A DNA stretch of 64,000 nt from Phnomibacter ginsenosidimutans (GTDB taxonomy: Bacteria; Bacteroidota; Bacteroidia; Chitinophagales; Chitinophagaceae). Positions 29,626-61,199 of this stretch are shown here, in pieces. The notes beneath the pieces were generated by a model. It ran no database searches. It was not told the origin of the DNA and saw only the letters and a list, made by a program, of their open reading frames with translations. Positions within the stretch are counted from its first letter, which is position 1; every line of letters starts with the position of its first letter. The position numbers and the translations under genes are program-made. Location of the stretch: assembly GCF_009740285.1 (NCBI RefSeq), contig NZ_CP046566.1:2910501-2974500 (forward strand), written 5' to 3'.

Positions 29626-29652
29626 GCTCCCCTTTAGGGGTTGGGGGTTTGA
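29626..29652. repeat. dispersed GC-rich palindrome, family A, copy 2
   Basis: The sequence CCCCTTTAGGGG with a trailing TTGGGGG is the inverted counterpart of copy 1. The two copies bracket about 70 bp holding the start region of the oxidoreductase gene. This copy supplies the terminal residues (Ser-Gln-Thr-Pro-Asn-Pro) and stop of the beta-helix/mutarotase gene. Confidence 0.72.
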
Positions 29653-32144: not shown

Positions 32145-32318
32145 ACCGGGTACTGCTACAATTTGCCTTGTTAGCAGGCAAGCTGCAGCCATTAAAAGTA
32201 CCGGTATCAGCAAGCCCGGAAAATGTGACTATTTGCCAAAAAGATGGTCTATTTTACTGTTTTGCCAAGGGCTACAGTTGCGTCATACAGACCTCTGGCT
32301 ACCGCTGCCTGCACTATT

Positions 32319-37264: not shown

Positions 37265-37337
37265 CTTTCTTCAATCCTGATTTTTTTCAAATGCAAGTAA
37301 GATGTTGTAGCGCCACCATGCCTGCAAGAATGTTCAA

Positions 37338-41512: not shown

Positions 41513-41524
41513 AGCACTCAATTT

Positions 41525-42364: not shown

Positions 42365-42406
42365 GGCCAATAAAGTTAATGGGATGACTCTGGCGACCTT
42401 CCTGCA

Positions 42407-43974
42407 CTATGCAGTGCCGCCCGGTACTTTGCGCCGCAGGCTACTCACTACAAGACCTGTGAGAAAAATGCTGAGCGTACCAACTACTATAATCATGTTT
42501 TTGTGCAACGGACTTTGCCATGCGGCCAACGATCCCGTAAGCTTGGGAGAAAAACTCATCCACAAAATGATGAGGATACCAATCACAACGGCCGTTACCG
42601 CTGCTGCATTGCCTGCTTTTTTACTGATAAGACCCAGCAAAAATAAACCCAGCATGCCACCGGCAAAAATGCCGCTCAGCTCCCACCATACATCGAGCAG
42701 ACTTTTGGCACCAATCATGGCAAGACCTGTACACAAACCAATTACGCCAAACACAACCGTAAAAATGTGCAGTAAACGCAGTTGTTGTTTATCGGTGCTA
42801 TGCTTTCGAAAATATTTTCCGTAAATGTCTACAGTAAACACTGTGGCAGATGCATTCATGTTGCTGCTAATGGTACTCATAGCTGCAGACAACAGCGCTG
42901 ATACAATAAGCCCCACCAAACCAGTTGGAATATGATTGACCATGAAGAATGGCAACACTTTATCGCCGTAATCTGCAGGCTGTAAACTATTGGCCAGCTG
43001 CTGCAAGGCCTGCGGCGTAGCGGCCGCACCCAACCTTTCTGTCGCCACCTGTAGTTTAATCGGCTCAATCAACGCGGGTTGCGCCTGATAGAAAGCATAC
43101 AATGCTGTGCCAATCAAAAAGAACAATAAGGAAGCAGGCACATACATCCACACACACAACCAAACCGATTTACGGGCCTGCCGTTCGTTGCTGGCTGTAT
43201 GGTAGCGTTGGATATAGTTTTGGTCCATGCCAAAATTGTTGAGGTTGATGAAGAAGCCATACAACAACACCACCCAAAAAGTACTGCTGGTAAAGTCCGG
43301 CGCCATGCTGCCAAGGCTGATTTTATCATCGGCCATGGCGGTCTTTGCAATGCTGGTAATACCACCAGGCACTTGCTGCCACAGCAACCACAAAATGAGC
43401 ACGGCACCTAGCGTTTTAATAATGCCTTGCGCCACTTCCGTCCAGATAACGGCTTCCATTCCACCCAGCACGGTATATACAATAATGCAGGCACCCATCA
43501 CCAGCATAATAGATTGCATACTGAAACCGGTAAGTGCTTGCAGGCTTAGTGCGATGCCAAAAAGATAGAGCCCATGCGGGCAAATTGTGTCAGCAAAAAA
43601 CAAACTACTGCATAGGTTCGGGCCCAGGGGCCAAAGCGTTTTTCCAAATGTGTGTACGCAGAAATTTCGCCGGTGCTCCGGTAAAAGGGTACAAAATATT
43701 TTGCTGCTACCCATGCTGCCAGGGGCATAGAGATGCTGAACACAAATGCATTCCAGTTACTGCCAAAAGCTTTGCCGGGTACACCCAAAAAAGTATTGCT
43801 GCTTAAAAATGTGGCATAAATAGAAAGACCAATAGCCCAGCCGGGTATACGGCCCGATGCCTTGGTAAACTGCTCAGTGTTTTTATTTCTTTTCGAAAAA
43901 TAAACACCAATGGCTACCATGGCCAGCATGTACACGGCAATTACTGCCAGGTCTATCAATGGCAAATTGTGCAT
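42407..43974 (-). CDS. sodium:solute symporter (SLC5/SSS), frameshifted
   Basis: Inner-membrane Na+ symporter, about 522 residues if repaired. The first part (LPLIDLAVIAVYMLAMVAIG, FTKASGRIPGWAIGLSI, FLSSNTFLGVPGKAFGSNW) ends in QFARMGSIF and then a premature stop at 43546. The rest continues one frame over as GIALSLQALTGFSMQSIML and runs to 42407, including the core STISSNMNASATVFTVDIYG. The break is the A5 run at 43559-43563 (T5 on the coding strand); one extra base gives RMGSIFFGIALSLQ. All helices are present across the two pieces, so this looks like a homopolymer error. It probably imports the sugar acid or monosaccharide processed by the downstream FAH/DapA genes. Confidence 0.88.
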
Positions 43975-47000: not shown

Positions 47001-47820
47001 GCACCCATTGCTTGCTACCATCTGCATATTCCAGTTGCAGTTGCAGCAGCAGTTTGGGGAAACCAAAGTTGTTGTGCTTGTGTGTTTTATAGTTTTGGCG
47101 CATGGTAAAAAAACGGCCATTGCCCAGCACCACGCCAATAGCGTTGTTGCCTGCTTTCAATGCTGTGGTTACATCATGCGTGTTGTACAACACCGTTTTC
47201 CGATAGTCAGTAGGATTGGGCGCCAACACCTGATTGCCAATTTTTTTTCCATTGATGTACAACTCATACATCCCCATACCGGCTATGTGTACAGTAGCCC
47301 TCTTCAAAGCAGGCTTGGCAGAAAAGCTTTTGCGCAAATACCGTGCACTCAACCGCGACCACTGGCTGATGCTATCCCACGGTGAAGCCTGATCGTAACC
47401 AATCCATTTGGCTTTCCAATCGGATGATTGAAAAAGACCGGTACTAAATTCGGATGATAACGTAACTGGATTGCTGCTCTTGTTTGTCCAAGCCAATACT
47501 TTCCAATAATAGCGGCTACCCGATTGCAACGCCGCACCATTGTACCGAATGTGTATGCTTTGGCTGCCAGCTACTTTTCCCGAATTCCAAACATCAGCTT
47601 TGTTGGCCGCCAGTGCAGCCTTGCTACTGCTCACCAGCACTTGATAATGCGTTTGCTGTACATTTCTTTCCTGGCTGATGAGCTGCCAGCTAAAGCGGGG
47701 TTGAGCTACATCAATGCCTTGCGGATTGCTCAACATTTCGCAACGCAATTGTTGCAAGCGGGCTTGTGCAGACAGCTGCAACGAAAACAACACCGCTAAC
47801 AGAGAAAAAAATGTACGCAT
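44023..47820 (-). CDS. GH78 alpha-L-rhamnosidase fused to a sialidase-like beta-propeller
   Basis: Exported 1265-residue bimodular enzyme. A signal peptide (RTFFSLLAVLFSLQLSAQ) leads to the GH78 layout: N-terminal beta-domains (RFSWQLISQERNVQQTHYQV; GMGMYELYINGKKIGNQVLA) and the (alpha/alpha)6 barrel with the acidic motif DCPQRNERQPWLGDR (about 485-500) and GDWCVPPE. It ends with a beta-domain near residue 890 (FHFVRNKPF-like). The last ~360 residues form a sialidase-type propeller (FPESHAATIAETPSGLIAAWFGG; Asp-box repeats RSKDHGYTWS, MTRDYGKTWT, WSHDGGKTWS, TNNGKTW). Joining both activities suggests sequential removal of rhamnose and the next residue. The propeller may be a hydrolase or a lyase; the identity is not certain. 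Confidence 0.87.
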   Translation of the reverse strand: MRTFFSLLAVLFSLQLSAQARLQQLRCEMLSNPQGIDVAQPRFSWQLISQERNVQQTHYQVLVSSSKAALAANKADVWNSGKVAGSQSIHIRYNGAALQSGSRYYWKVLAWTNKSSNPVTLSSEFSTGLFQSSDWKAKWIGYDQASPWDSISQWSRLSARYLRKSFSAKPALKRATVHIAGMGMYELYINGKKIGNQVLAPNPTDYRKTVLYNTHDVTTALKAGNNAIGVVLGNGRFFTMRQNYKTHKHNNFGFPKLLLQLQLEYADGSKQWVLSDESWKLNVDGAIRSNNEYDGEEYDARKEWPGWTTAAFDASKWMQANLVTAPDGKLQAQSTESMQVMKIIQPKSIRKNASGRYIIDMGQNFSGWMRLKNIAGKKGDSIVLRFAESLQPNGELFVANLRDAKVTDKYFFGNHAIDANGWRPSFVYHGFRYVEVSAFPGTPQLAQFSGELVYDALTTTGRFSTSNAVINQVYQNAWWGIASNYKGMPVDCPQRNERQPWLGDRTVGAQGESFVFDNAKLYAKWMQDIEESQTTAGSIPDVAPAFWNYYTDDVTWPAAFIFISNHLYNQYGDDMPIRKHYASMKKWMMYMKEKFMKQYIMTKDKYGDWCVPPEALHLIHSKDSSRQTDGQLIATAYYYKLLSYMQRFAGMQQLPEDAAYFGKLSDSIRIAFQEKFYRPALKQYSNNTVTANLLPLYFGICPDSLRSAVFEKIRHKVHVENHDHISTGLIGSQWLMRGLTEYGYPELAYTIASNNTYPSWGYMAANGATTIWELWNGNTADPGMNSQNHVMLLGDLITWFYENLAGIRSHKSEVGFKKVIMKPTIPAGLKEVKAAYESMHGSIASHWKNTESKFEWHITIPANSSAQVYIPATAVEEITENGKPLTAYNYISIGKLEKGLLQINIPSGTYHFVRNKPFKQGIVKDEFIFERASFPESHAATIAETPSGLIAAWFGGTKEGNKDVCIYTSHLRNGQWTTPNMVADGVLNDSTRYPTYNPVLYYADNGELLLFYKIGPNVAGWTGWMMRSKDHGYTWSKREALPEGFLGPIKNKPVMINGVLMCPSSTEKNGWKAHIEMTRDYGKTWTKTEALNDANPTQAIQPSILQYKDGRLQLLCRSRNTTLNETWSHDGGKTWSPMQASPLPNNNSGTDAVTLQDGRQLLVYNHLLPTNSWVKGKGPRTPLNVSITNNGKTWYAALILEDSPISQYSYPSVIQTKDGLVHIVYTWRRERIKHVVVDPSKLTLQEIVNKQWPGAHESDATTSDD

Positions 47821-47850: not shown

Positions 47851-50649
47851 TCATGTGTAAAGCCCTTGCAGGATCTTTTCGTAGTCGTAAAAAATATTTT
47901 TGAAGCCCATTGGGCCAGTGGTTTCATTGCGTTGTGTTTTGGTACCAATACTGCTGATGCCATGCATAAAAGAAATATCACCCGGTGGAAACAATGGTTC
48001 GTAATTGTGCCACTGATCCGTTTTCCAAGCAGGCGTAAACAAACGCAGGAAAATATTTTCTGTTTCGCAAACAACAGTAAAGCGATTGCTTTTGCTGAAA
48101 AAATAACCGCCATAAAAACGGGAATGATAGCCTTTGAACTCAGGATACAACCACGGGCTCTCTCCAGTTTCAGCATTATTGTAGGTTTTGCTCCATACAC
48201 CAAACTGATTGCCCTTCATTCTGTTTTTCCAAACACGATACGGGCCATCGCCCATATAGGTAACGGATTGTACTTCCTTTTCCGGAAATGAAAAATTGAT
48301 GCCCGCAAAATTGGTAAAGTAGGCAGATGGAAAGTATTGCACTTGCAGCTTTACCCAACCCGATGGATAAATGGTCCAACTGATGTTGTTGTAATGGCTT
48401 TGCTTGTTGTATTGCGTTTGCAACACAACAGAATCGCCGGAAGCTGTTACCTGCAAAGCACCCAGATTATTCACTGCATCTTGCAACACTGGTCCATTGT
48501 GCAAAGGCAGTACACCCTTTGCATTGCTCACAGATTGCATGATGCCATTGTATTTATTGAACTGAATGGTTACATCACTCACCCGAACTTGCAGCATTGA
48601 ATCTTGCTCCTGCAGTTGAATAGCATGTGGCCCTTTTATGCTGCGCATTCTTGAACCGATTGCAGCTGGCTGATGAATCGGGTAAGTCCAGGTAAACAGT
48701 TCCTGCTGTTGCGCATCTGTAATGCTGAGATACAAAACATCGTATTCCATCCAGTTGGCAGGCAGGTTTAATTGAAGCGTCGCTTTGGTGAGTGGTGCAG
48801 CATCAGGCATCGGTGCAGTACCATTCACTTCATTCGTACTGCGTACATCAATCCTTTTCAATTTCCAACGCAGTTGGCAAGTGTTCAAATTGGTAAAATG
48901 ATACCGGTTTTCAACAGTAAAACTTCCATCGAAATCGGGTGTCATTTCTCTTCGCTCAATAAATACCGGACTCCAGATTTGTTTGATGGCAAAATAGCTG
49001 CCTTCTTTTTCATGATGAGGACCTACGATACCATCCGCAGCCCGATGTTTATCTGTATCCAGCGAATCATTTTTGTCTTTTCGAACAACAGCATTGTCGG
49101 CAAAGTCCCACAAAAAACCACCGGCACTCAGTGGGTTGTGCCACATGTGTTGCCAGTAATCTTCTAAGCCGGCACCATGTCCCCCATCAAACTGCCCATG
49201 CAAAAATTCAGTAGGCATTACTATCTCATTGCCATTGTCGTAATTGCCAATGCCATAGTTGTACTCACGGTAGTGTTGTGTTTCTACACCATTGTACAAC
49301 TCCCATGGATGTACAACTGGCCGCTGCTGCAAATCATATTGTGTAAAGTATGCATCGAGTTCACGGTTGTGCCCGCCCTCATTGCCATTGGCCCACAACA
49401 CAATGGATGGATGATGCGCATCATGCAACATCATTTCTTTCAACAGCTTTTTCCCGGTAGGCGTATCGTAGTGGCCATGCCAGCCCGCCAACTCATCCAT
49501 AACAAACAAACCCAACGAATCACACACATCCAGGAAATGATCATCAGGAGGATAATGACTCATTCGAACAGCATTCATGTTCATGCTTTTGATGAGCTGC
49601 ACATCTTCCACACTAATGCGATAGCTGGTGGTGCGGCCCGTTTCCGGACGAAATGCATGCCGGTTCACGCCTTTGAATTTCATCTTGACGCCATTTACAT
49701 AAATGCCGTCCCGTTGCTTTAGCTCAACCGTTCTGAAACCAACTTTCTTGCGTATGCTGTGCAGCAGTTTTCCCTCTTGATAAATGGAGAAAATCGCTGT
49801 GTATAAATACGGCGTTTCGGATGTCCATTGCCGTGGTTGCGTCAGCGTTCCTGTCAACAGCATTTCGCCGGGCCTTTCCGGATGCACATTCTTCCCTTCA
49901 AAAATGGATACCGTTTTTCCTGTTGCATCCAGCAGTTGCACTTTGGCTTGAATGGCTTGTTGGCTATTGCTGTTAAGTGTAGCAAAAAAACTACCATCAG
50001 CTTCTGCTCTCCATGCTACTTTACTTATGTGTACTGCAGGCAATACTTCCAACCACACCGGGCGAAAAATGCCGCCAAAAATCCAAAAGTCAGCCAGCCT
50101 TTCTGCTGCGTTTACAGAAGCGTTGGCAGAATGCTTCGATACTTTTACTTCCAGCAAATTTTCTTTGCCGTACTTCAGCAAATTGCTCACGTTGTATTTG
50201 AATGCATAAAAGGCCCCCTGATGAATTTCGCCAGCCTTCTGTCCATTCATGGTTACTTCGGCATCCGTCATTACGCCTTCAAACACCAAATTGATTTGCT
50301 TTCCTTTCCAGGCGATTGGCGCATTAAAACGGTGCTTGTACAAACCCTGCTCTTTCCCTCTTACACTGTCTTTGGAAAAGCCATAATCATACTTACCAAA
50401 CCCTTGCAACTCCCAACAAGATGGTACAGCAATCTTTGTCCACTTATTGGCATTCATGCCAGCTGTACACATAAAATCCCATTGTACCGTTGCATCGCTG
50501 CCAGTGCCAGAGAGATATATTTTTTCGGTTTCTTGTGCGTTAGCTGAAAGTGAAAAAAACATCAAGTTGTAAAAGCAACAGACCAACACAAAAAACATGT
50601 GCTGGTTATTGCGCCAAAATGAAAAAAATGTATGGATAAACCTGATCAT
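47851..50649 (-). CDS. GH2 beta-glycosidase
   Basis: Exported retaining GH2 enzyme of 932 residues, probably a beta-galactosidase, beta-glucuronidase or beta-mannosidase. A hydrophobic export segment (MFFVLVCCFYNLMFFSLSANAQ, in part) leads to a jelly roll, an immunoglobulin-like domain and a TIM barrel. Acid/base Glu424 lies in VLWANGNEGGH and the likely nucleophile Glu481 in IVMPTEFLHGQFDGG. The unusual GNEGGH in place of GNE(A/S)G marks a separate GH2 subgroup from the LacZ-type gene at 16732. I start at the ATG at 50649, which overlaps the stop of the upstream glycosidase (ATGA); a longer frame upstream is out of context. The nucleophile motif is inferred by position, so the substrate is open. 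Confidence 0.88.
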   Translation of the reverse strand: MIRFIHTFFSFWRNNQHMFFVLVCCFYNLMFFSLSANAQETEKIYLSGTGSDATVQWDFMCTAGMNANKWTKIAVPSCWELQGFGKYDYGFSKDSVRGKEQGLYKHRFNAPIAWKGKQINLVFEGVMTDAEVTMNGQKAGEIHQGAFYAFKYNVSNLLKYGKENLLEVKVSKHSANASVNAAERLADFWIFGGIFRPVWLEVLPAVHISKVAWRAEADGSFFATLNSNSQQAIQAKVQLLDATGKTVSIFEGKNVHPERPGEMLLTGTLTQPRQWTSETPYLYTAIFSIYQEGKLLHSIRKKVGFRTVELKQRDGIYVNGVKMKFKGVNRHAFRPETGRTTSYRISVEDVQLIKSMNMNAVRMSHYPPDDHFLDVCDSLGLFVMDELAGWHGHYDTPTGKKLLKEMMLHDAHHPSIVLWANGNEGGHNRELDAYFTQYDLQQRPVVHPWELYNGVETQHYREYNYGIGNYDNGNEIVMPTEFLHGQFDGGHGAGLEDYWQHMWHNPLSAGGFLWDFADNAVVRKDKNDSLDTDKHRAADGIVGPHHEKEGSYFAIKQIWSPVFIERREMTPDFDGSFTVENRYHFTNLNTCQLRWKLKRIDVRSTNEVNGTAPMPDAAPLTKATLQLNLPANWMEYDVLYLSITDAQQQELFTWTYPIHQPAAIGSRMRSIKGPHAIQLQEQDSMLQVRVSDVTIQFNKYNGIMQSVSNAKGVLPLHNGPVLQDAVNNLGALQVTASGDSVVLQTQYNKQSHYNNISWTIYPSGWVKLQVQYFPSAYFTNFAGINFSFPEKEVQSVTYMGDGPYRVWKNRMKGNQFGVWSKTYNNAETGESPWLYPEFKGYHSRFYGGYFFSKSNRFTVVCETENIFLRLFTPAWKTDQWHNYEPLFPPGDISFMHGISSIGTKTQRNETTGPMGFKNIFYDYEKILQGLYT

Positions 50650-52190
50650 AGTTTGCCTGTAATTTTTTCGAGTGATAAAGAAGAGGCTACTTTCTTCCCA
50701 TTCACCCACACACTCAATCCCTTGCCCCGCTTATACTTCGTACCGTCTTCATCCCACACAATGCTGATGATTTTATCATGGTACAATACATTGTCAAGGC
50801 AAAACCATTTCCATGTATGCTGAGGTAATAATGGCGATACTTCCAACACATTATCGGCCCGTGGACGCAACCCTACCAAACCAGTAATGATTAAATCATT
50901 AAACGTAGAATGATTGTAATATCTGCTCCGTTCTTCATCGCCTTTTAACCAGTAACCCGTTTTTTCATCGAGGTACTCGCCAATGTATGGACGCCCCCGA
51001 TAGTATTGCGATTCAACATACGTGTTCAGCAGTTGAAAATAATCTTGCTTAGATACGTAGGGAGCTGGCTGCACCTGCAACAAATTGGCCATACCCGTCA
51101 ATGTTTGTGCAGTGGCAAATGGCCACACTGCACCATCCCATTCGCATTTGCAACACCCATGTGTTCTGAATTGCGGATGACTTCTGTCCGCAGTAGTGAT
51201 GCCAAAAGGAGCACAAAATGTTTTGGTATCTGTCAGGCTTTTCCAAGCAATATTGTAGCTGCTATCGGGCATATTGAAATACCATGGAATAAACCCAATG
51301 GCTTCTTTCACCGCGGCCAATGTATCGCCTTGCTCTTTGCGTACTTCAAAAAAGTTATGTTCACTGTTCCAGAGTTTTGATTGCGTTTCGGCTTTAACGG
51401 TTTTGGCTTTCTGCAAATAGTCTGCCGCCTTTGTTGCATCACCATTCAGGTGCCACAAGGCTGCCATAGCATTGGCATTGCCATACATATACCCGTTGAT
51501 GGAAGGTCGTGGATTCTTTTCTTTTCTGCCACCGCTAATGGTTTCTTCCATGGCGTCCCGCACATCGTATTGCCAATACAAACCATCGGGCCGCTGCTTC
51601 TCTTTTTCCCAGGCCTGATAATCCGCATCCAAATCAGGCAACAGATTCAAGACGAAACTCTTGTCCCCATTGACCAAAAAACGATTGTAAATGGCATCCA
51701 TATTCCAGCTGCTGTAAAAGCGGAGCTTATTCAGCGGCTTTCCGTTATTGCCCCTGTACCAAACCAGCAGGTTCTCATCCATGTACTGCTTGTGGTGCAA
51801 CCAGCGAGACTCGTAAATATGATGCCCCAACCCGCTGGAGATAAGATTGTATTTATCGGCATAACTACGCTGCACTAAAAATTCTGTCATCACAAAACCT
51901 TGTGGGGTTTTCTTGATGTGTTTGCGCAACGTCCACCAACGGTAATAGAAAATCTCTTCCATGTTTTGCTGCGGACATTCAAACAGCGGAATGTTTTGCT
52001 GCATCCAATACCACGCACTATCATTTGGAATGGCTTGCTCAATATTGGGCGTTTCCATGCTGTTGAAATAATCAACATAATGCTTGAATTGCTGATGCTT
52101 GAGCAACAATGGCTTTGATTGTGCCATTGCTTGACATGTGAACATCAACACAGCTGCTACAGCAATACAATATTTGAATACACACTTCAT
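50646..52190 (-). CDS. (alpha/alpha)6-barrel glycosidase, GH63/MGH1-like
   Basis: Exported glycosidase of 514 residues. A signal peptide (FKYCIAVAAVLMFTCQAMAQ) is followed by helical repeats typical of the GH63/trehalase/mannosylglycerate-hydrolase-like fold: YYRWWTLRKHI (about 80), FYSSWNMDAIYNRFLVNGD (about 160), DGLYWQYDVRDAMEETISGG, SINGYMYGNANAMAALWHL and CKCEWDGAVWPFATAQTL (about 350). A short C-terminal beta-domain ends it. I do not recognise a specific CAZy family with certainty. It is 5 bp downstream of the FGGY kinase gene and 4-bp coupled to the GH2 gene, linking the apiose-like catabolic genes and the next hydrolases into one operon. Confidence 0.72.
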   Translation of the reverse strand: MKCVFKYCIAVAAVLMFTCQAMAQSKPLLLKHQQFKHYVDYFNSMETPNIEQAIPNDSAWYWMQQNIPLFECPQQNMEEIFYYRWWTLRKHIKKTPQGFVMTEFLVQRSYADKYNLISSGLGHHIYESRWLHHKQYMDENLLVWYRGNNGKPLNKLRFYSSWNMDAIYNRFLVNGDKSFVLNLLPDLDADYQAWEKEKQRPDGLYWQYDVRDAMEETISGGRKEKNPRPSINGYMYGNANAMAALWHLNGDATKAADYLQKAKTVKAETQSKLWNSEHNFFEVRKEQGDTLAAVKEAIGFIPWYFNMPDSSYNIAWKSLTDTKTFCAPFGITTADRSHPQFRTHGCCKCEWDGAVWPFATAQTLTGMANLLQVQPAPYVSKQDYFQLLNTYVESQYYRGRPYIGEYLDEKTGYWLKGDEERSRYYNHSTFNDLIITGLVGLRPRADNVLEVSPLLPQHTWKWFCLDNVLYHDKIISIVWDEDGTKYKRGKGLSVWVNGKKVASSLSLEKITGKL

Positions 52191-52195
52191 GGTTA

Positions 52196-53674
52196 TTATA
52201 TTAACTGCTTCCAAACAGCATAACTCTTTTTTATTTGATTGGCATCTGCATCAGGAAGAAAACTTTTTTGAGCAACCGGTAATTGTGCAATCACCACAAG
52301 ATTGTCAAATACACCTGTTTTGAGTCCCGCCAACAATGCAGCACCCAATGCGGAGACGTCTGGATTGCCAATGGTAGTTACTTTTTTACCCAACAAGTCG
52401 GCCATGCTTTGCACCACAAACCGATTGGCAGAAATTCCGCCATCCACATTGAAATCATGCAACTCAACAGCAGCGTCTTGCTCCATGGCAGTAATGACAT
52501 CTTTTACCTGAAACGGAATAGACTCCAACGCTGCCCGCACAATATGATTTTTGGTGGTGCCGAAACTCATACCACTAATAGAAGCCCTGCGTTCTGGCTG
52601 CCAATGCGGCGAACCTAATCCACTGAACGCAGGAATCACACACACACCTGCACTATCAGCAACAGCGTTTGCCATGGCTTCAGTTTCTTTGCTATCGGCA
52701 AATAAATTCAATTCATTTTTCAACCATTCAATAGTGGCGCCGCAGGACACAATCACGCCTTCAAATGCATAATCAATGCGCCCATCAATACTCCAACAAA
52801 TGGTAGTAACCATTCCGTTGTTAGACCGTACCGGTTTATCGCCAATGTTCATGAGAATGCTGCAACCAGTGCCCAATGTAGCTTTCGCAGTGCCTGCTTC
52901 AAAACAACCTTCACCAAATGCAGCAGCATGCGAATCGCCAATCATACCTGTTACAAGAACGGGTTGCGCAAACAACCCATCCAATGTTGTTTCACCAAAA
53001 AATGCGGAAGATGATTTTACTTCCGGCAACTGAATACCTGTTAATCCAAACGCATCAATCAACTCATTATCCCATTGCAATGAATGCAGATTGAAGAGCA
53101 GTGTTCTTGAAGCATTGGTATAGTCTGTAGCATACTTTTTGCCGTTGGTCAACTTGTACAGCAACCATGTATCAATTGTTCCGAAGTAAGCTTCTCCACT
53201 TTGAATGGCTACTTTTATGGCCTCATTATTCCTGTTGAGCCAGATGAGTTTGGTAGCAGAAAAATAAGGATCAATCACCAGACCGGTTTTCTGATTCACC
53301 TGTTCAGACAATCCTTGTTGCTTCAATTCCTCACAAATTTGTACCGAACGTTTGCATTGCCACACCACAGCATTGTGCAATGGTTTGCCGGCTTTATCCC
53401 ATACAACAAATGTTTCCCGTTGATTGGAAATGCCAATGCCAGCAATTGCAGTTGAATCAAATCCCTTTTCAGTAAAAGCCTGCAAACATTTTTGTACAGC
53501 TGCCAGTACGTTTTGATAAATGATTGCTGGCTCCTGTTCTACAAAACCATGGTCGAGATAATGCGTATGCAAATTCTCAGCACCTTTTGCAATAGCCTGC
53601 CCTTGCTCATCGAAGACGAGTGCCTTGGTAGAACTTGTTCCCTGATCAATAGCAAGTATATATTTCGCTGACAT
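52196..53674 (-). CDS. FGGY-family sugar kinase (glycerol-kinase-like; candidate apulose kinase)
   Basis: Cytoplasmic ATP-dependent kinase of 492 residues. The phosphate-binding start AIDQGTSSTKALVFD, the ISNQRETFVVWD block, GTIDTWLLYKLTNGKKY and the C-terminal ATP motif DGGISANRFVVQSMAD are typical of FGGY kinases close to glycerol kinase. The neighbours argue for a ketose substrate: a FucI-type isomerase and a split transketolase lie directly upstream, and a GH140 apiosidase is in the same run. In the described D-apiose pathway an isomerase, an FGGY apulose kinase and a two-subunit apulose-4-phosphate transketolase act in this order. Alternative substrates are glycerol, xylulose or another ketopentose. 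Glycerol is less likely, as no glpF or glpD is present. Confidence 0.88.
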   Translation of the reverse strand: MSAKYILAIDQGTSSTKALVFDEQGQAIAKGAENLHTHYLDHGFVEQEPAIIYQNVLAAVQKCLQAFTEKGFDSTAIAGIGISNQRETFVVWDKAGKPLHNAVVWQCKRSVQICEELKQQGLSEQVNQKTGLVIDPYFSATKLIWLNRNNEAIKVAIQSGEAYFGTIDTWLLYKLTNGKKYATDYTNASRTLLFNLHSLQWDNELIDAFGLTGIQLPEVKSSSAFFGETTLDGLFAQPVLVTGMIGDSHAAAFGEGCFEAGTAKATLGTGCSILMNIGDKPVRSNNGMVTTICWSIDGRIDYAFEGVIVSCGATIEWLKNELNLFADSKETEAMANAVADSAGVCVIPAFSGLGSPHWQPERRASISGMSFGTTKNHIVRAALESIPFQVKDVITAMEQDAAVELHDFNVDGGISANRFVVQSMADLLGKKVTTIGNPDVSALGAALLAGLKTGVFDNLVVIAQLPVAQKSFLPDADANQIKKSYAVWKQLI

Positions 53675-53728
53675 ATCTTTTATTTTCTCTCACCGATTTC
53701 AATGACACTACATAGCTGCACCGTCTGA

Positions 53729-54716
53729 TTATTGCTGAATCAGCTTCAGCACTTCACTTGCTATCCCCTCTTTACTAATTCCGTAATGGTTGAAAATTTC
53801 AATCTGCGAACCTGTTACCGTGTATTCATCTGGAATACCGATGATCTTAAATGAGCCTCCCCAAACCCCTCCGGTGGAGGGGCTTTTCAGCTGCATTAAA
53901 AAGGATGCCACTGCTTCACCTAATCCACCATAAATACTATGCTCTTCCACTGTAACAATTGCTTTGCACTTTCTTGCAAGCGATTCAATAAGTGCAGTAT
54001 CCAACGGCTTAATGGTATGCATGCTTACCACTGTTGCTTCAATGCCTTGTTCTTTTAGCAACGCTTGCTGCCTGTACTGCGGGATAAACCGTTTCACCAT
54101 TAGCAATGATGGCGACATCATTTCCTTCGGTGATGATTCTTCCTTTACCAAAAACAAATGAGTCGTTGTTATTTGCTTTTAATGCAGGCATTATTTTTTT
54201 GCCGAATCGCAGGTACACAGGTTTGTCACTAGCTGCCGCAAGTTCAGTTGCTTTTTCGGTTTCGAAATTATCGGCGGGAGCAACAATGGTAATATTGTTG
54301 ATGGCTCGCAACACTGCAAAGTCGTGCAGACTATGATGCGTACTTCCCAATGCACCATAGCTAACGCCAGCACTGATACCCACAACAGTTACCGGATGAT
54401 TGCTGTAGCAGATATCGGTTTTGATTTGCTCCAACGAACGTGCCGTTAAAAAACAAGCCGGCGAAACGGCAAACACTTTTTTACCGCAAGAACCTAAGCC
54501 CGCAGCTACGCCCACAAGATTTTGTTCTGCTATTCCTACTTCCACTATTTGCTGGGGAAACTGCTTTCCAAAAGGCACCAGCTTTCCTGACCCTCTCGAA
54601 TCGCTGGTAACAGCAATCACGTTGCGGTCGGATGCTGCCAGCCGTTGCAAGGTTTCAGCAAAAACATCCTGGTTGGGCTTGTCGCCTCCGGGTTCTATAT
54701 GTATTTGTTCTGCCAT
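53729..54716 (-). CDS. transketolase C-terminal half subunit (frameshifted, repeat insertion)
   Basis: Second subunit of a split transketolase, about 328 residues if repaired. It carries the pyrimidine-binding domain with the catalytic Glu in IVEVGIAEQNLVGVAAGLG (about 60) and FLTARSLEQIKTDICY, and the C-terminal domain SMHTIKPLDT, TVEEHSIYGGLGEA and FKIIGIPDEYTVTGS. The frame breaks near 54062-54068: PAVQAA would continue as ALLKEQGIEATVVS if one base of the AA pair (TT at 54065-54066) were removed. A second oddity is a family A palindrome (53854-53886) read in frame as about 12 extra residues (LKSPSTGGVWGGS) between FLMQ and FKIIG. It partners the next gene upstream; candidate apulose-4-phosphate transketolase. 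Confidence 0.87.
53854..53886. repeat. dispersed GC-rich palindrome, family A, copy 3
   Basis: Contains a perfect 7-bp stem with a 3-base loop, CCCCTCC-GGT-GGAGGGG (53866-53882), flanked by GCCTCCCCAAA. It lies inside the transketolase C-terminal gene and is translated in frame, unlike copies 1 and 2, which sit at gene ends. Confidence 0.8.
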
Positions 54717-54728
54717 CTTCTTTTTATT

Positions 54729-54805
54729 TAACTACAAAGACACAGAGCACAAAAAGAGCCACTAAGCTTTCTTTGTGCAGCTTTTTTTCTTAGTTACTCA
54801 GTCGT
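54729..54805. repeat. dispersed palindromic repeat, family B, copy 3
   Basis: Left arm AACTACAAAGACACAGAGC and right arm TTTCTTAGTTACTCAGTCG, with an internal pair (CTTTCTTTGTGCAGC). It fills the gap between the two transketolase genes and supplies the C-terminal codons (Asn-Leu-Glu-Arg-Leu-Ser-Asn) and stop of the upstream subunit, matching the way copy 2 ends the oxidoreductase gene. Confidence 0.75.
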
Positions 54806-55656
54806 TCAAGATTGATTCGTTCCGCATCTAATTCTTCCATTGCCTGTTCATACTGTTCCTTACTGGGCACACCATGATGCCACTTCAATTCATTCTCCAT
54901 GAAGCTCACCCCCTTTCCCTTTGTTGTATGTGCAATAATGACAGATGGCTTCCCTTTTTCAAAAGGAAGACTGTTGAATGCAGCTCTTAGTTCATCAATA
55001 TCATTTCCGTTTACTTCTTTCACTGCCCAGCCAAATGCTTTCCATTTTTCATCCAACGGGTCGGTGTTCATTACATCACTCGTAGCTGCTGTAATCTGCA
55101 GACTGTTCTTATCAACAATAGCACAGAGGTTATCCAGCTTGTAATGTGCTGCACTCAAAGCGGCTTCCCAGTTGCTGCCTTCGGGCAATTCACCATCCCC
55201 CATCAAGGTAAACACACGATACGCTTTGTTATCGAGTTTGGCAGCAATAGCAGTGCCTACACAAATAGGCAAACCATGCCCCAACGCACCAGTATTTTGT
55301 TCAACACCTTTTACTTTTCGGGTTGGGTGGCCGATGTAATGAGATTGATATTTACACAACGTGTTCAACTCTTCTTCCGGAAAAAAACCTTGATCGGCCA
55401 ACACGACAAACAATGCTTCTACGCAATGTCCTTTGCTTTGCACGTAACGGTCACGGTCGGGGGATGCAAAGTTTTCCGGCGATACATTCAACACATCGTT
55501 GTACAACACGTTCAGAATATCGGTAGCTGATAAACTACCACCAGTATGCCCGGCTTTTGCCTGCAAAATGTATTTGAGTATTTTTTTCCGATACTCAACT
55601 GATTTTAATTTTAATTCCTTGCTTGTCATTTTTAATGCTTTTGAACCATTCACCAT
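54790..55656 (-). CDS. transketolase N-terminal half subunit
   Basis: Thiamine-diphosphate-binding subunit of a split transketolase, 288 residues. It has AKAGHTGGSLSATDIL (about 33-48), YVQSKGHCVEALFVVL, QNTGALGHGLPICVG and the ThDP motif LMGDGELPEGSNWEAALSAA ending in VDKNSLQ (about 150-185). It transfers a two-carbon unit between ketose phosphate and aldose phosphate together with the C-terminal subunit. The ATG at 55656 abuts the stop of the isomerase gene (TAAATG); a second ATG at 55629 starts where homologues usually begin (TSKELKLKS). The C-terminus is set by a dispersed repeat. A housekeeping transketolase would normally be one chain of about 670 residues, so the split form next to a kinase and isomerase points to a dedicated sugar pathway. 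Confidence 0.92.
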   Translation of the reverse strand: MVNGSKALKMTSKELKLKSVEYRKKILKYILQAKAGHTGGSLSATDILNVLYNDVLNVSPENFASPDRDRYVQSKGHCVEALFVVLADQGFFPEEELNTLCKYQSHYIGHPTRKVKGVEQNTGALGHGLPICVGTAIAAKLDNKAYRVFTLMGDGELPEGSNWEAALSAAHYKLDNLCAIVDKNSLQITAATSDVMNTDPLDEKWKAFGWAVKEVNGNDIDELRAAFNSLPFEKGKPSVIIAHTTKGKGVSFMENELKWHHGVPSKEQYEQAMEELDAERINLERLSN

Positions 55657-57072
55657 TTACCCATGTGTGTAGGTTTCCCAACCCAGGTAATTTTCAAACG
55701 ACTCTTTCAGAATGCCTGCAGTTTTGCTGGCGTTCATTACTACATGATGTTCAAAACCATTGCGGCATACATAATGCATTAAGCCTTGCAGGTTGTTGAT
55801 TTGTGCCACAGCACGGTTACCAAAAGTGTTGAGTGAATCATTCGTTAATTCACCTTCACCAATGTATGCTTTGATAATGCCTTTGCAATCATCCGTACTG
55901 ATACGACCGTATGTTAATGGCATGGCGGGAGTACGGCCATCCAATGCACCATACGTATTTTCTGTACCAACACTTGTACCAAGAATGGGTGCTGTGCTAA
56001 TGGTAATATCCGGCAAGAAAGATTTTGCCCAGTTGCCACAATGGAACAATACACATTTGGTATCATCATCGGCATAGTTGTTGTTCCAATCTACCAGTGC
56101 AGATGGTGAACCACTTGCCAATTGCATGGCATACATACTGAGTGTACCTGTTACATCTACTTCGCATGCAGAAGGCAACATGTTTTCACTCATCATACTC
56201 ATGCTGGTGCACACATTGCAACCATAGTTTTGTTGTAGCGATGTCCAGCATTGAATAGCGGTTGCGTCTAATGAATTGGCAGCCATAAAATCGGCAAGCG
56301 CCACATCCAATTTTGCAATCTGTACCAATCGATCGTTGGGCGTAGCTCCTGTAGCTGCATAGGCATGTATCTTTTCCAGTTTCTCTTTTACCGATTGATC
56401 GCTGGCAGTAAGTTTATTGGCATTACCCAGTATTTCACTCAGGTCAACTGTTGTTACAGAAATACCGTTGCGTTGTAAAATTTTCTCACTGTAACGAACG
56501 GTATTGAATGCTCCTGGCCTTGCGCCCACTGCACCTATTCGCACTTTGCGCATACCTTTCACCACACGACAAACAGCAAGAAAGTTTTTCAAATCAGCAA
56601 TGAAACTTTCATCCGTCGGACTCACCACATGTTTTGTAGTAAGTGAATACTTGATGCCAAACTGATACAGATTGTTGCACACTGAAATTTTTCCGCACCA
56701 GGCATCTCTCCTGTTTACCACATCCATTTTGCCTAAATCATCGGGATAGGCCTGTATCAACACAGGCACATTCAAGCCCGACCACTTAATGGTTTCTGCA
56801 ACACCCTTTTCATCGCCAAAGTTGGGCAGCACCACCAAAATGCCTTCAATGCTGTCTGCATGTTGTTTGAACAATGCCGCACATTTCTGTGCCTCCGAAA
56901 AAGTTTCTACACCGCCGAGCTTTGTATCGGCGTCACTTAGCATTACTGGCGTAATGTTCAATTGATGAAACAGGTCTATAATTTGTGTTCTTGCTTCTGC
57001 CACCAGTTTATCAGGAAAGAAATCACGGTTTCCGATGATGACACCGATGGTTGCATATGATTGATTTGCCAT
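55657..57072 (-). CDS. L-fucose/L-arabinose isomerase-family protein (candidate apiose isomerase)
   Basis: Cytoplasmic metal-dependent aldose-ketose isomerase of 471 residues in the FucI/AraA superfamily. It has an N-terminal Rossmann-like domain (GVIIGNRDFFPDKL; ILVVLPNFGDEKGVAETIKW; VPVLIQAYPDD), then KVRIGAVGARPGAFNTVRYSE (in part), with candidate metal ligands in the later barrel (ACEVDVTGTLSMYAMQLASG; LFHCGNWAKSF) and the terminal FEHHVVMN. It is shorter than true FucI (about 590 residues) and not a close match to AraA, so the substrate is not fixed. Immediate linkage (0 bp) to the split transketolase and kinase suggests it makes the ketose that the kinase phosphorylates. The known D-apiose isomerase is of a different (xylose-isomerase-like) fold, so this would be a non-homologous replacement if the pathway is right. 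Confidence 0.82.
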   Translation of the reverse strand: MANQSYATIGVIIGNRDFFPDKLVAEARTQIIDLFHQLNITPVMLSDADTKLGGVETFSEAQKCAALFKQHADSIEGILVVLPNFGDEKGVAETIKWSGLNVPVLIQAYPDDLGKMDVVNRRDAWCGKISVCNNLYQFGIKYSLTTKHVVSPTDESFIADLKNFLAVCRVVKGMRKVRIGAVGARPGAFNTVRYSEKILQRNGISVTTVDLSEILGNANKLTASDQSVKEKLEKIHAYAATGATPNDRLVQIAKLDVALADFMAANSLDATAIQCWTSLQQNYGCNVCTSMSMMSENMLPSACEVDVTGTLSMYAMQLASGSPSALVDWNNNYADDDTKCVLFHCGNWAKSFLPDITISTAPILGTSVGTENTYGALDGRTPAMPLTYGRISTDDCKGIIKAYIGEGELTNDSLNTFGNRAVAQINNLQGLMHYVCRNGFEHHVVMNASKTAGILKESFENYLGWETYTHG

Positions 57073-57080
57073 GGTTATAC

Positions 57081-58918
57081 TTATTTATGATTTGTAAATA
57101 CGCTATGAATAAAATAGGTTGCTTCTTTCACTCTCGATGCTGCAGCAGGCGGATCATAATCCTGATCGGTGGGTGTGTCTGCATTGGGAAAACGCCGTAC
57201 TTCACCCGTACGAAATGCAATACGTTGCACCGTTTCTACAGGCTGAAAGAAAACATTCAGGGACGGTTTTCCATCGTTGATAATAACAGAATAAAAACGA
57301 GTAGTAGTATTCAATTCAATTCGAATACGGAGTGTTTCTCCGGCACGGTATTTACCCAGGCTCTTGTTGCGATAGCCTTGTTTGGTAAGCACATTTCCTG
57401 CACTATCCAATATCAGGCGTAGCGTTGCAGTGCCTTTACTATCCAGCACTTCCACGTATAAATCACCATGTTGATTTTGCGCCGGCGTAAGGCTAAAATC
57501 AATATTTACCTGCTTCGATTCTGGAAACAAACGTTCCGCTTTTGCATAATCAAAAGGATCGCTATCGTGCAGCGTTAGTCCTTTTTATCCAAAGAAACAT
57601 TACACCACAAAGGGCTATAGATATTCCATTTGTTCCATGCGGCTATCGCGGTATCTGATGTAAAATCATCCTGCACATCAGCTGTTGCTTTATCTGCAAC
57701 GGGCACAGGAATTTTGCTCACCCACATGTCCTCTTTGTTCATACTGTAGGTCACCCACATGTTGCCATCAGCAGGCTTGCCATTCATTTCCTGAATGCCC
57801 CGCACATACTGTGGTCCATAACTTTTGTAAGCGCCGCCATACCGCATCGAGGTTATTTCACCATTCACCAACAACAGATTGTTGTAATTCAAGCCATCCT
57901 TGCTTACACTCACAGCCAATGGCCAGCGAAACTCTGCCGGATTGTACACCGTTGCATAATTGCCATCGCTGGTGCGCTGACCCCATATTTTTGCATTGGC
58001 GTTGATAAAACCCGGAGCCCGAAGCGGACCATACTGCCATGTTTTACCTTCATCTTTGCTAATACTCGTTAATGCGTATTTCCACAAGCCTACTACATGG
58101 CCGTTGGGTAAATGATAAAAGTTGAATGCTTTAAAATCTTTTTGCAAAGGAATCAGCGGATCATTTCTGTCGGCCTCTTCTACAGTTTGCATCATGAGTA
58201 GTGGCGTCGCTAAAATTTCTTCGCATGCTGCCTGCAAAGCTTTATCACCAGATGATTTATAAAACGGATACACAGTGTTTTGCGCATTGAATGCATGGTT
58301 GTAGCGCAAAAAATAAATCGGGCCAAAGCTGCCATCAGCTTTTACCTCCCGAATAACACGGCCTATGCCATTGCCATCATTCGGATCATCTTTTGCACCC
58401 AGTACAATACCATAAAAACCCAATGCATACAATCGGTTGGCTTTCGATACATAAAAACCAAACCGCTGATGCATCACCGCAAAATTGTTGTGTGCTGTAT
58501 CTTTTTTGCCGGGCTTTACATAACCATCCGGCACTTGGTATGGCGGAAAAATAATGACTGGTTCCGTCCACTCATATCCATTGGATGAAGATTGCAAAAG
58601 TGTTTGTCCGGCACCTTGATGTTCACCAACAGGATTGCTCAGGTATTCGAGATAAAACTTATTGTTCCAATACGCCAACATAGGTGCGTGGTTATACGTC
58701 CATGCAGTGGGCTTTGGTGCATCGGCTCTGTTGGCCCGCATGGTTTGTATGTTGTGTACACCCATGGCCGGCGATAACTGCCCATGATGATAATCGACAT
58801 TTGCCAGTGTGCTACCTATATATCGAACCGTATCTTGAGCACAGGCAACATTTACGTTTGCCATGCAAAAAATGAGAGCAGCTGCACCTATCGTATTCTT
58901 CACTACACGCATAATCAT
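57081..58918 (-). CDS. sialidase-fold beta-propeller protein with C-terminal beta-sandwich (frameshifted)
   Basis: Exported protein of about 612 residues if repaired. A signal peptide (GAAALIFCMANVNVACAQ) is followed by a six-bladed propeller (YHHGQLSPAMGVHNIQTMR, PTAWTYNHAPMLAYWNNKFY, ISKDEGKTWQYGP, VSKDGLNYNNLLLVNGEI). The last ~180 residues are a concanavalin-like domain (VNIDFSLTPAQNQHGDLYVE; LRIRIELNTTTRFYSVII). The frame ends after SLDKKD at 57575; one missing base in the T5 run at 57582-57586 would restore DKKGLTLHDSDPFDYAKAER and LFPESKQ. It resembles L-rhamnose-alpha-1,4-D-glucuronate lyase-type propellers (PL42), but I hold that loosely. It is 4-bp coupled to the GH43 gene. Confidence 0.75.
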
Positions 58919-59823
58919 TTTGTATTCTTAATCAACCGCCGGATGAATGTTCTTTTTACGGGCACTATCGTTCCATGTTTGTGGCCAGCTGGCACCTGCA
59001 CTTCTGTCGTTACATTGTTGAATTGTTGAAAGTTGCTGGTGGAATAGGCTTCGTAAATTTTCTTTTGGTAGGAGTCAAAATAAATCAACCACTGATTGCC
59101 AAGTTTTACCACGGTTGGGCCTTCTGTAAAAGCATCGCTAAAGGGTGCAGAAATCTTTTCCCATGGCCCATTGATGCTATTGCTAAAAGCAACTTTCAAA
59201 TTGCGTTCCGGTCTTGTATTGTCTTTGAGCACCAATACAAAATCGTTTGCAGCTCTTCGCACAATCACCGCATCAATCACACTAAAACCCGGGTCAAGAA
59301 ATAATTGGGTGGGCGAAAATGTTTGAAAGTCTTTGGTGCTGCTGATATACATGCGATGATTGTTGCTGTCAGCCTCCTGCCCTTTTTCGAACCTACCGGG
59401 AATGCAACTGGCCCAAATGATGCTGTACGTTTTTGTAGCCGCATCATAAAAAATCTCCGGAGCCCACACATTTACCGTAGTTGGTTCGTGAGCCATTACC
59501 GGTATCAAACGTTGTTCACTCCAATGGATTAAATCTTTGGACGAAGCATAACCAAATCCTTTATCGCCACGCCAGCTACTGGTCCACACCAAATGAAAAG
59601 TACCGTCAGGGCCTTGTACCATTGACGGATCCCGCATAACTTGCTGATTACCTACGGTTGGCTTCAGCAGCACTGTATCCAAATCTGTCCAGTGTTTGCC
59701 ATCGAAACTGTAGAGCATGCGTAGCCCCGCATCTGCCGGTTCGTGAAAGGATGTAAACAAATAACCTTTGCCTGCACAAGAAGTCAGGAAAACACAAACT
59801 ACTATGTAAACAAAATACCGCAT
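58915..59823 (-). CDS. GH43-family glycosidase, lipoprotein
   Basis: Surface or periplasmic lipoprotein of 302 residues with the lipobox LTSC (about residue 16). It is a single five-bladed propeller with the three GH43 acids visible: Asp in VMRDPSMVQG, Asp in FSVIDAVIV and Glu in AFTEGPTVV. The opening YLFTSFHEPADAGLRMLYSF is typical of small Bacteroidota GH43 enzymes acting on arabinan, galactan or arabinogalactan side chains. The inverting exo-enzyme releases arabinose, galactose or xylose; specificity cannot be set by eye. It lies between GH140 (2-bp gap) and the propeller gene (4-bp overlap). Confidence 0.88.
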   Translation of the reverse strand: MRYFVYIVVCVFLTSCAGKGYLFTSFHEPADAGLRMLYSFDGKHWTDLDTVLLKPTVGNQQVMRDPSMVQGPDGTFHLVWTSSWRGDKGFGYASSKDLIHWSEQRLIPVMAHEPTTVNVWAPEIFYDAATKTYSIIWASCIPGRFEKGQEADSNNHRMYISSTKDFQTFSPTQLFLDPGFSVIDAVIVRRAANDFVLVLKDNTRPERNLKVAFSNSINGPWEKISAPFSDAFTEGPTVVKLGNQWLIYFDSYQKKIYEAYSTSNFQQFNNVTTEVQVPAGHKHGTIVPVKRTFIRRLIKNTK

Positions 59824-59825
59824 GT

Positions 59826-61199
59826 TTATTTTTCAATCACCAATACCCAGTCGTTACCATTGGCTTCATCGCCCGGTGGATCAAATGTTACTTCACCTTT
59901 TTTAGTAAAGGTTTCAATTGCTATCTGGTCGCCGGTAGCAGGCTTTATCCAATAGGCTTTTGTAGGTGTAAACATGATTCGGTTCATGTACAATTTAAAT
60001 GACCGACCGGTGTATACATAAAACATGGCCAGCTTATAAGAAGCTGCAGCTGCTACACGGGCATAGCGTTCACCATTGTCCACAACCAAATGCTGTGCGG
60101 ATGCATGCTGAAAAAAATCTTTGCTTTCAACCAGTTTTTTCAGCTGTTGCATTTGCGTAGCACCCGGTGCCAGCAATGCTTGTTTCCAATTCATGGTCAC
60201 ACCATAATTGGCGGTCCAATCACCAGCATTGTTGAATTGCATCACCGCATTTTCGCCATAGGTAAAACCAGCACCACCGGCAAAAACACTCCAGTAAGCA
60301 TAGCGGCGCAAATCAGCATCGGTCCAGCGGGGTTGCAAACTATCGTGCAAACCATGCGGAATGTTTTCATACGAAGGCTCACCATCCAACGTTGGTTTTA
60401 CCGGGCTGAGTTTGTAATCCAGTGCCACGTACTTCCAGTTGTCTTCGCCAAAGTGATGTGTTTCCGTAGCTACGGTATCCTGCGCATAATCTTTATGCCC
60501 ACTCTGAAACATATTGAAATCGAGCCAGCTACTGTTGTGAAACCATTCGCTGGAAGTTGTTCTTCCCCTTGGGTGAAAAGTCATGAGGTGATGGGGATCG
60601 TATTGCTTGATGGTTTTACCCAGCACTTCCCAAACTTCGCCACCTTCTGAACCTCTTACATCGCCACCATTCAGCCAAATGATATTCGATTTCTTAGCAA
60701 AACGCTGTGCCAAAAATTGGCCATACACGGCAGCTTGTTCCGGCGTTACTTTTCCGCCTTTCACGTTACTTCCCCACACTGGTACCAGTGCCATATACAT
60801 ACCCCGTTTGGCCGCTTCATCTACAATGTATTCTACGTGATCCCAATAATCGTATGCATCTGCATTATCAGGATTTTTCCCTTCCGTTACATTGGGCTTC
60901 GACACATCTTCATTTCGCAAAGCCAAATCGCCGTACACATTTTTGGTATTGTTCATGTCGTGCAGCACCATTACCTGTATCACATTAAATCCCTGCGACT
61001 TTCTTACATCCAGGTAGTGCACCGCATCCTGCCGATTGCATTTTACAAACAACAACCAGCCGGTATCGCCCAACCAAAAAAAGGGTTTTCCATCAGCCGT
61101 TTGAAAATACCGTTGATTAGAAGACACTTGCAACAAAGGCAACTGCGCCTGTGCAAACAAGTGAAGCAACATGCCTATCGATACTAAAAACTTCTTCAT
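59826..61199 (-). CDS. GH140-type apiosidase (DUF4038 family)
   Basis: Exported retaining glycosidase of 457 residues. A signal peptide (KKFLVSIGMLLHLFAQAQ) precedes the DUF4038 barrel: RYFQTADGKPFFWLGDTGW (about 30-48), GFNVIQVMVLHDMN, then acid/base candidate Asp180 in IIWLNGGDVRGSEG and nucleophile candidate Glu274 in TLDGEPSYENI. A beta-sandwich tail ends in FDPPGDEANGNDWVLVIE, the collagen-binding-like C-terminal domain usual in this family. GH140 cleaves the apiose linkage to galacturonan in RG-II. The spacing of the two acids is close to that of the characterised Bacteroides enzyme as I recall it. It is co-directional with the isomerase, transketolase and kinase genes about 3-8 kb downstream, which supports apiose as the sugar used. 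Confidence 0.9.
   Translation of the reverse strand: MKKFLVSIGMLLHLFAQAQLPLLQVSSNQRYFQTADGKPFFWLGDTGWLLFVKCNRQDAVHYLDVRKSQGFNVIQVMVLHDMNNTKNVYGDLALRNEDVSKPNVTEGKNPDNADAYDYWDHVEYIVDEAAKRGMYMALVPVWGSNVKGGKVTPEQAAVYGQFLAQRFAKKSNIIWLNGGDVRGSEGGEVWEVLGKTIKQYDPHHLMTFHPRGRTTSSEWFHNSSWLDFNMFQSGHKDYAQDTVATETHHFGEDNWKYVALDYKLSPVKPTLDGEPSYENIPHGLHDSLQPRWTDADLRRYAYWSVFAGGAGFTYGENAVMQFNNAGDWTANYGVTMNWKQALLAPGATQMQQLKKLVESKDFFQHASAQHLVVDNGERYARVAAAASYKLAMFYVYTGRSFKLYMNRIMFTPTKAYWIKPATGDQIAIETFTKKGEVTFDPPGDEANGNDWVLVIEK

Follow-up and report, generated by a model that had tools for sequence, protein, structure and literature searches.

D-Apiose, a rare branched sugar, is catabolized by a known route in which an isomerase, a kinase and a two-subunit transketolase act in turn. 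The non-oxidative form of this pathway was reportedly set out by Carter et al. in 2018, who are said to have named the isomerase ApsI. In the relevant parts of two published sources, the pathway consists of ApsI, AplK and AptA/AptB and corresponds to MetaCyc entry PWY-8089 (PMC13001218, PMC6302742). Excerpts of the former show growth on D-apiose for Escherichia coli lineages with a D-apiose cluster containing aplK, aptA and aptB, and state that this cluster does not contain the apsI gene of Pectobacterium but has two oxidoreductase genes in its place (PMC13001218). With regard to the release of the sugar from rhamnogalacturonan II (RG-II), part of a further report describes BT1012 of Bacteroides thetaiotaomicron as a beta-apiosidase and BT1001 as the enzyme that releases rhamnose from Rha-Api (PMC7939467). 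In this article, we describe a run of genes in Phnomibacter ginsenosidimutans that appears to combine apiose release with apiose catabolism; the run lies within a stretch of 64,000 nt (contig NZ_CP046566.1, positions 2,910,501–2,974,500, of a 4.37-Mb genome in one contig), which is hereafter called the window.

Gene order and conservation of the probable apiose module

An earlier interpretation of this DNA, made from its letters and translated open reading frames (ORFs) and hereafter termed the sequence-only reading, placed a co-directional, almost gapless series of genes between positions 61199 and 52196 of the window, from a glycoside hydrolase family 140 (GH140) gene to an FGGY kinase gene on the minus strand. 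Its coordinates and layout are borne out: intergenic distances in the run range from −4 to 73 bp, the genes for the isomerase and the N-terminal half of the transketolase abut with 0 bp between them, and a value of −119 bp corresponds to the overlap of two pieces of one broken gene, that for the C-terminal half of the transketolase. The genes of the run are presumably co-transcribed. The run also extends past the kinase gene to GH142-like, GH2 and GH78 genes, which the first reading overlooked.

The catalytic domain of the GH140 protein is homologous to that of PDB entries 3kzs and 5msy, which we take to be BT1012, and aligns across residues 23–455. The transketolase is split in the manner of AptA/AptB: its N-terminal half is 52% identical to AptA of E. 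coli SE15 and 60% identical to a Listeria homologue, and the two pieces of its C-terminal half are 42% and 37% identical to AptB of SE15. The split transketolase of the sequence-only reading is thus present in both halves, but the frameshift of the C-terminal half in the window assembly had escaped notice.

A conservation scan with the isomerase matched at least 592 stretches, at least 542 of them relatives, and the best 80 were used for the locus counts given out of 80 (throughout, loci are labeled L and genomes G). These 80 loci are all apparently from Bacteroidota, two of them have identical isomerases, and 64 have full flanks. The nearest named relatives among the matches listed were those of Lacibacter cauensis (93%), a Chitinophagaceae metagenome-assembled genome (93%) and Lacibacter luteus (92%). 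The isomerase and the N-terminal half of the transketolase are encoded on the same strand in all 78 loci that hold both (the remaining two lie on contigs under 5 kb) and are less than 400 bp apart in 65 of them, an arrangement that is far from chance. Among the full-flank loci, both transketolase halves occur in 64/64, an RbsB-type protein in 61/64, DUF2291 in 55/64, RbsA in 54/64, RbsC in 52/64 and the kinase, at least in part, in 47/64.

Co-occurrence was assessed in a set of 148 relatives, 11 of which have the isomerase and 31 of which have GH140 at E 1e-50. GH140 is found in 10 of the 11 isomerase genomes and in 21 of the 137 others (Fisher 4e-7, with kinship ignored and nearness not required); at an identity of at least 49%, the corresponding counts are 9/11 and 11/137 (Fisher 1e-7, kinship again ignored). 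The coupling of apiose release to apiose catabolism, as the first reading proposed, is therefore supported by the gene content, by homology to the apiose clusters of the E. coli and Klebsiella type and by the co-occurrence with GH140, and we assign a probability of about 0.85 to a D-apiose catabolic module of the known route inside an RG-II degradation locus.

According to this proposal, GH140, presumably secreted, would act outside the cytoplasm and detach side chains headed by apiose from the galacturonan backbone; D-apiose would be exposed by rhamnosidases that the locus also encodes. After uptake through some permease, the AraA/FucI-type isomerase would convert D-apiose to D-apulose, the GlpK-like kinase would convert D-apulose to apulose-4-phosphate, and the two-subunit transketolase would transfer two carbons to an acceptor, a phosphorylated aldose, so that dihydroxyacetone phosphate is left.

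Fold and relatives of the isomerase

An AlphaFold model of the isomerase, built from 20 alignment rows, had a pLDDT of 84.7 and a pTM of 0.88. A fold search with this model returned L-arabinose isomerases at the top (E 3.3e-23, TM 0.78), followed by D-arabinose and fucose isomerases, and all 41 Foldseek matches with E < 0.001 were arabinose, D-arabinose or fucose isomerases; PF02952 was the sole Pfam match. The predicted fold is firmly that of the AraA/FucI superfamily. Six residues that we assume to be metal ligands (E304, D306, D328, H344, H442 and H443) are invariant in all 24 aligned isomerase rows, including that of the window. In a sequence search of the PDB, the single protein found no match, and its profile gave one chance-level match (E 0.63). 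The sulfoquinovose isomerase SftI was considered and rejected, as model NF048012 scored 88 bits against a cut-off of 700.

The sequence-only reading held that the fold differs from that of the known apiose isomerase, such that the enzyme would be a non-orthologous replacement and the route new. This view draws on the firm AraA/FucI fold, together with the fact that identity with the published ApsI is a matter of inference; the enterobacterial relatives speak against it. A search of a plasmid collection with the isomerase matched 16 records, of which the best three, Klebsiella pINF102.2, Rahnella and Sodalis, are 54.6–55.7% identical and the remainder 22–30%. The clusters of these three each encode RbsB, DUF2291, RbsA, RbsC, a sugar-binding regulator, the N- and C-terminal halves of transketolase, the isomerase and an FGGY kinase. 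Because no second isomerase is annotated within the stretches fetched, the 55%-identical protein is the sole isomerase in them that could be ApsI, although Rahnella also has an SDR oxidoreductase gene immediately before the binding-protein gene. The layout with two oxidoreductase genes was seen in E. coli SE15 and in two Klebsiella records, so that the isomerase marks the apiose layout without the oxidoreductase pair and is taken as ApsI. The isomerase of the window thus probably belongs to the ordinary ApsI family, an identity that we infer from these relatives. A new fold and a new route were dropped as the likeliest reading once these clusters had been found, and we consider a replacement of the known enzyme unlikely; a misleading lead on a new isomerase is thereby corrected.

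Kinase pocket and phylogeny

The kinase passes the cut-off of the GlpK subfamily model NF000756 (576 bits; cut-off, 498) and misses that of the GlpK equivalog model TIGR01311 (564 bits; cut-off, 590). In relatives, NF000756 scores GlpK proteins, some of them fragments, at 639–860 bits versus 546–586 bits for the kinases linked to AptAB and for two others, which come from fragmented genomes without an isomerase match (G009 and G034). The difference extends to two positions that we take to be glycerol-pocket residues, labeled Gln247 and Phe271. The signature D-Q..F, with Gln and Phe, is present in 32/32 glycerol kinases examined (E. coli K-12, the two other GlpK copies of the window genome and 29 of the best-scoring in relatives). 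The signature D-S..S, with Ser at both places, is present in all 48 distinct AptAB-linked kinases of Bacteroidota (50 rows, including two identical pairs), in both Bacillota kinases (Listeria and Monoglobus) and in all four intact enterobacterial AplK proteins. The broken AplK of L008 is likewise Ser/Ser, and one XylB-like outlier has neither signature.

A firm grouping of the kinase with glycerol kinases had been named by the sequence-only reading as a finding that would overturn it. In a tree of 41 rows picked out of 90, the Bacteroidota kinases instead form their own clade (99/98), which neighbors the GlpK clade (100/100) and is distinct from the AplK clade (100/99); the two Bacillota kinases are unplaced. 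The window protein, 37% identical to AplK of SE15, is of the FGGY family expected of an apulose kinase. Its Ser/Ser pocket and its own clade indicate that it is no ordinary glycerol kinase, and glycerol catabolism was rejected on the same grounds. The simplest cause of the Ser/Ser pair common to this kinase and AplK would be the same substrate, while a retained ancestral state is possible. The residue signature thus separates probable apulose kinases from glycerol kinases, for which family models mistake them.

Frame breaks in the window assembly

Two genes of the run are broken. The gene for the C-terminal half of the transketolase is spread over two frames that overlap, and the GH143-type gene encodes 447 aa. 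A genome of the same genus (G006) has the same gene order at 94–99% identity, with an isomerase 99% identical to that of the window; there, single frames encode AptB (333 aa) and the GH143-type protein (615 aa), the latter long enough to take in the domain like a carbohydrate-binding module (CBM) that is displaced in the window. AptB is 323–335 aa in five further relatives checked. Among 19 other relatives with a match, GH143 frames of 603–680 aa are present in 18, and the remaining one has a fragment at the start of a contig. The two breaks lie within 4 kb of each other and are absent from so near a relative, which suggests assembly indels as the probable cause; real mutations are possible.

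Observations against the apiose assignment and other candidate sugars

Several observations weigh against the apiose assignment. The AptB gene is frameshifted in the window assembly, GH140 lies within the flanks of only 8/80 loci, and this kinase is missing from 17/64 full-flank loci. Two TIM-barrel xylose-isomerase-like genes with unassigned roles are also present in the window (1555–2883 and 32319–34547).

More specific objections concern L-arabinose or another RG-II pentose, which an AraA-like isomerase, a pentulose kinase and a transketolase might serve. Among 296 sampled genomes of the phylum, 13 matched the isomerase at E 1e-60; eight of these matches are only 48–53% identical, and seven of the eight were studied with their flanks. 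None of the seven loci has a close AptA or AptB, and L152 has a full-length transketolase; AraB- and AraD-like genes adjoin the isomerase in five of them (L151, L152, L154, L155 and L158), an assignment backed by family models in L152 and L155. The isomerases of these five (48–52%) probably represent a divergent type of L-arabinose isomerase, and with such neighbors the substrate of the isomerase is not fixed by its sequence alone. In a tree of 35 rows picked from 121 matches, the AptAB-linked isomerases of Bacteroidota and enterobacteria form a branch of their own, which speaks against arabinose, but the support joining them is only 94/93, which is not firm, and a grouping of the Bacteroidota isomerases with the ara type is not rejected (approximately unbiased test, p 0.27). 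Arabinose is, moreover, present in RG-II according to part of one report (PMC7939467). Against these points, AraD is found in none of the 80 AptAB-type loci and AraB matches there are weak, at most 27% identical; the kinase is GlpK-like rather than ribulokinase-like, and the transketolase is split and AptAB-like. A module for arabinose or another RG-II pentose is consequently regarded as very improbable.

Transport offers the second group of objections. The best match of the window genome to the apiose-type binding protein scores 24 bits. The binding protein encoded by the other Bacteroidota operons has its nearest match (55%) in the ribose-binding protein of Thermotoga maritima, solved with ribose, and 5ibq is not among the 50 matches listed for it. 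The Klebsiella binding protein is closest to 5ibq/4ry0 (450 bits), the former of which may be an apiose-bound binding protein. For the window itself, one of its symporters or its major facilitator superfamily (MFS) protein may carry apiose.

A substrate of D-ribose, or ribose derived from nucleosides, would accord with that binding protein and with nucleoside-hydrolase-like genes, which lie between the isomerase and AptB, or up to 600 bp after, in 21/80 loci (L009, L037–L045, L052, L057, L061, L064, L066, L067, L073–L075, L082 and L084). The families concerned are PF07632 (Sde182 NH-like) and, in L037, PF01156 (IU_nuc_hydro). No such gene was found in the 8 GH140 loci, a sample too small for mutual exclusion. 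Among the 148 relatives, PF07632 occurs in 8/11 isomerase genomes versus 12/137 others (3e-6), but in only two of the eight (G072 and G130) is it about 11 kb or less from the isomerase. These proteins may be alternative furanosidases acting on apiosides, or a sign of ribosides. The window genome, however, has neither the binding protein nor PF07632, GH140 co-occurs with the isomerase, and the pocket of the kinase is common to that of the apiose-growing E. coli lineages. Furthermore, ribokinase suffices for ribose catabolism, which needs no aldose isomerase and split transketolase. Ribose is judged the least probable of the substrates considered, and D-apiose is retained as the preferred one.

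The RG-II locus and a candidate route for DHA

By its gene content, the window is an RG-II locus. The features of the run are listed in Table 1; elsewhere in the window are genes for GH106, GH141, GH127, GH2, GH3 and alpha-L-fucosidase, together with several symporters.

Table 1. Features of the minus-strand run in the window, with the matches on which each assignment is based (DHA, 3-deoxy-D-lyxo-heptulosarate; TPP, thiamine pyrophosphate).
Feature	Coordinates	Strand	Matches and remarks
GH140 beta-D-apiosidase	59826..61199	-	PF13204 384 bits; PDB 3kzs/5msy 381 bits; 8t9w 'Apiosidase' 250 bits
GH43-like protein (BT_3657-like)	58915..59823	-	PF22847 39 bits; PF04616 31.4 bits, slightly under cut-off
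GH143-type (DHA hydrolase-like) beta-propeller half of BT_1020-type enzyme	57575..58918	-	PF24067 375 bits; C-terminal frame break
Displaced C-terminal CBM-like domain of GH143-type protein	57081..57530	-	PF22585 156 bits
AraA/FucI-type sugar isomerase, probable D-apiose isomerase (ApsI)	55657..57072	-	PF02952
Transketolase N-terminal (TPP) subunit, probable AptA	54790..55656	-	PF00456
Transketolase C-terminal subunit, probable AptB, frameshifted	53729..54716 (pieces 54039-54716, 53729-54157)	-	PF02779/PF02780
FGGY kinase, GlpK-like clade, probable apulose kinase	52196..53674	-	FGGY_N + FGGY_C; NF000756 576 bits
GH142-type (beta-L-arabinofuranosidase-like) half of BT_1020-type enzyme	50646..52214	-	PF22422; PDB 5mqr 688 bits
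GH2 enzyme, same run	47851..50709	-	PF02836/PF02837
GH78 rhamnosidase fused to BNR/sialidase-like propeller, one 1265-aa frame	44023..47820	-	PF17389, PF08531, PF13088

The GH143-type and GH142-type proteins align to different parts of one chain, PDB 5mqr, at residues 23–444 (614 bits) and 617–1098, respectively; the halves of a BT1020-type enzyme are therefore two genes in the window. We assume 5mqr to be BT1020 of B. thetaiotaomicron (GH143+GH142). The genes for the isomerase, AptAB and the kinase lie between these halves, and the same order is found in G006, L015 and L019. The GH43-like protein scores 76 bits with the NCBIfam alpha-arabinofuranosidase model, which has a cut-off of 500. A GH141-type protein encoded at 29634–32213 is fused to an L-rhamnose mutarotase-like domain, and the sole plus-strand gene checked, an ORF at 8335–9714, encodes a SASA carbohydrate-esterase domain (60 bits).

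A second set of genes, at 36140–40425, encodes in one run a D-threonate-kinase-like protein, a PdxA-like protein, an aldolase of the dihydrodipicolinate synthase (DHDPS) type and an Fe-dependent dehydrogenase. With the exception of the general pdxA model, all of these proteins score under the NCBIfam equivalog cut-offs. A homologue of the D-threonate-kinase-like protein is present in 8 of the 148 genomes (that of the window included). Each of these eight also has GH143, which occurs in 20 of the 148 (Fisher 3e-8), and keeps the four cassette genes close together. The distance between the kinase homologue and GH143 is at most 22 kb in G000, G012, G074 and G080, but not in the other four. On stereochemical grounds, aldol cleavage of DHA leaves a D-threo C4 unit. 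The cassette is accordingly offered as a candidate catabolic route for DHA, in which DHA would be cleaved by the DHDPS-type aldolase, yielding pyruvate plus D-threuronate; the latter would be turned into D-threonate by the Fe-dependent dehydrogenase, and the action of the D-threonate-kinase-like and PdxA-like enzymes on D-threonate would give dihydroxyacetone phosphate. A point against this assignment is that 12 GH143 genomes, including G006, have no homologue of the cassette kinase. We know of no DHA pathway that has been described, none having been searched for by name. Genes for a second DHDPS-type protein, an FAA-hydrolase and a sodium symporter stand beside the cassette at 40529–43714 and are partly kept there in G012, G074 and G036.

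Only tentatively, and with somewhat less than even confidence, we propose that the window forms an RG-II island complete in itself, comprising hydrolases and cytoplasmic routes for two of the rarest RG-II sugars, D-apiose and DHA. If correctly assigned, the DHA cassette would shed light on the consumption of the most complex plant polysaccharide; both this cassette and the nucleoside-hydrolase-like genes look more novel than the apiose module itself.

Comparison with known systems

In combining an isomerase, an FGGY kinase and a two-subunit transketolase in one cluster, the module resembles the non-oxidative D-apiose pathway. Most of its Bacteroidota relatives, though not the window, further share RbsB, DUF2291, RbsA and RbsC with the enterobacterial apiose clusters. 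The window differs from these clusters in that its kinase belongs to the GlpK-like clade rather than the AplK clade, its module lies in an RG-II locus that encodes an apiosidase of its own, and no ABC transporter or SorC-type regulator is found among the ORFs scanned. A further similar system is a cluster of Listeria monocytogenes NCTC7974 (L006, 5296–13083), whose single run encodes an isomerase, an AptAB-like transketolase with an N-terminal half of 60% identity, a protein of the apiosidase family and a GlpK-like kinase that has Ser at each of the two signature positions. Unlike in the window, the Listeria isomerase is merely 27% identical, the transporter is of the phosphotransferase system (PTS), and the GH140-like protein (27%) is annotated DUF4038; this cluster is probably an apioside operon.

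The GH140, GH143-type, GH142-type, GH106, GH141, GH127, GH2 and GH78 genes of the window recall the RG-II apparatus of B. thetaiotaomicron, the difference being that the halves of BT1020 are separate genes flanking those for the isomerase, AptAB and the kinase. The route proposed for apiose is ordinary and already known; what is informative is its setting in an RG-II locus, where apiose release and apiose catabolism would be encoded side by side in Bacteroidota, and the GlpK-like clade of its kinase.

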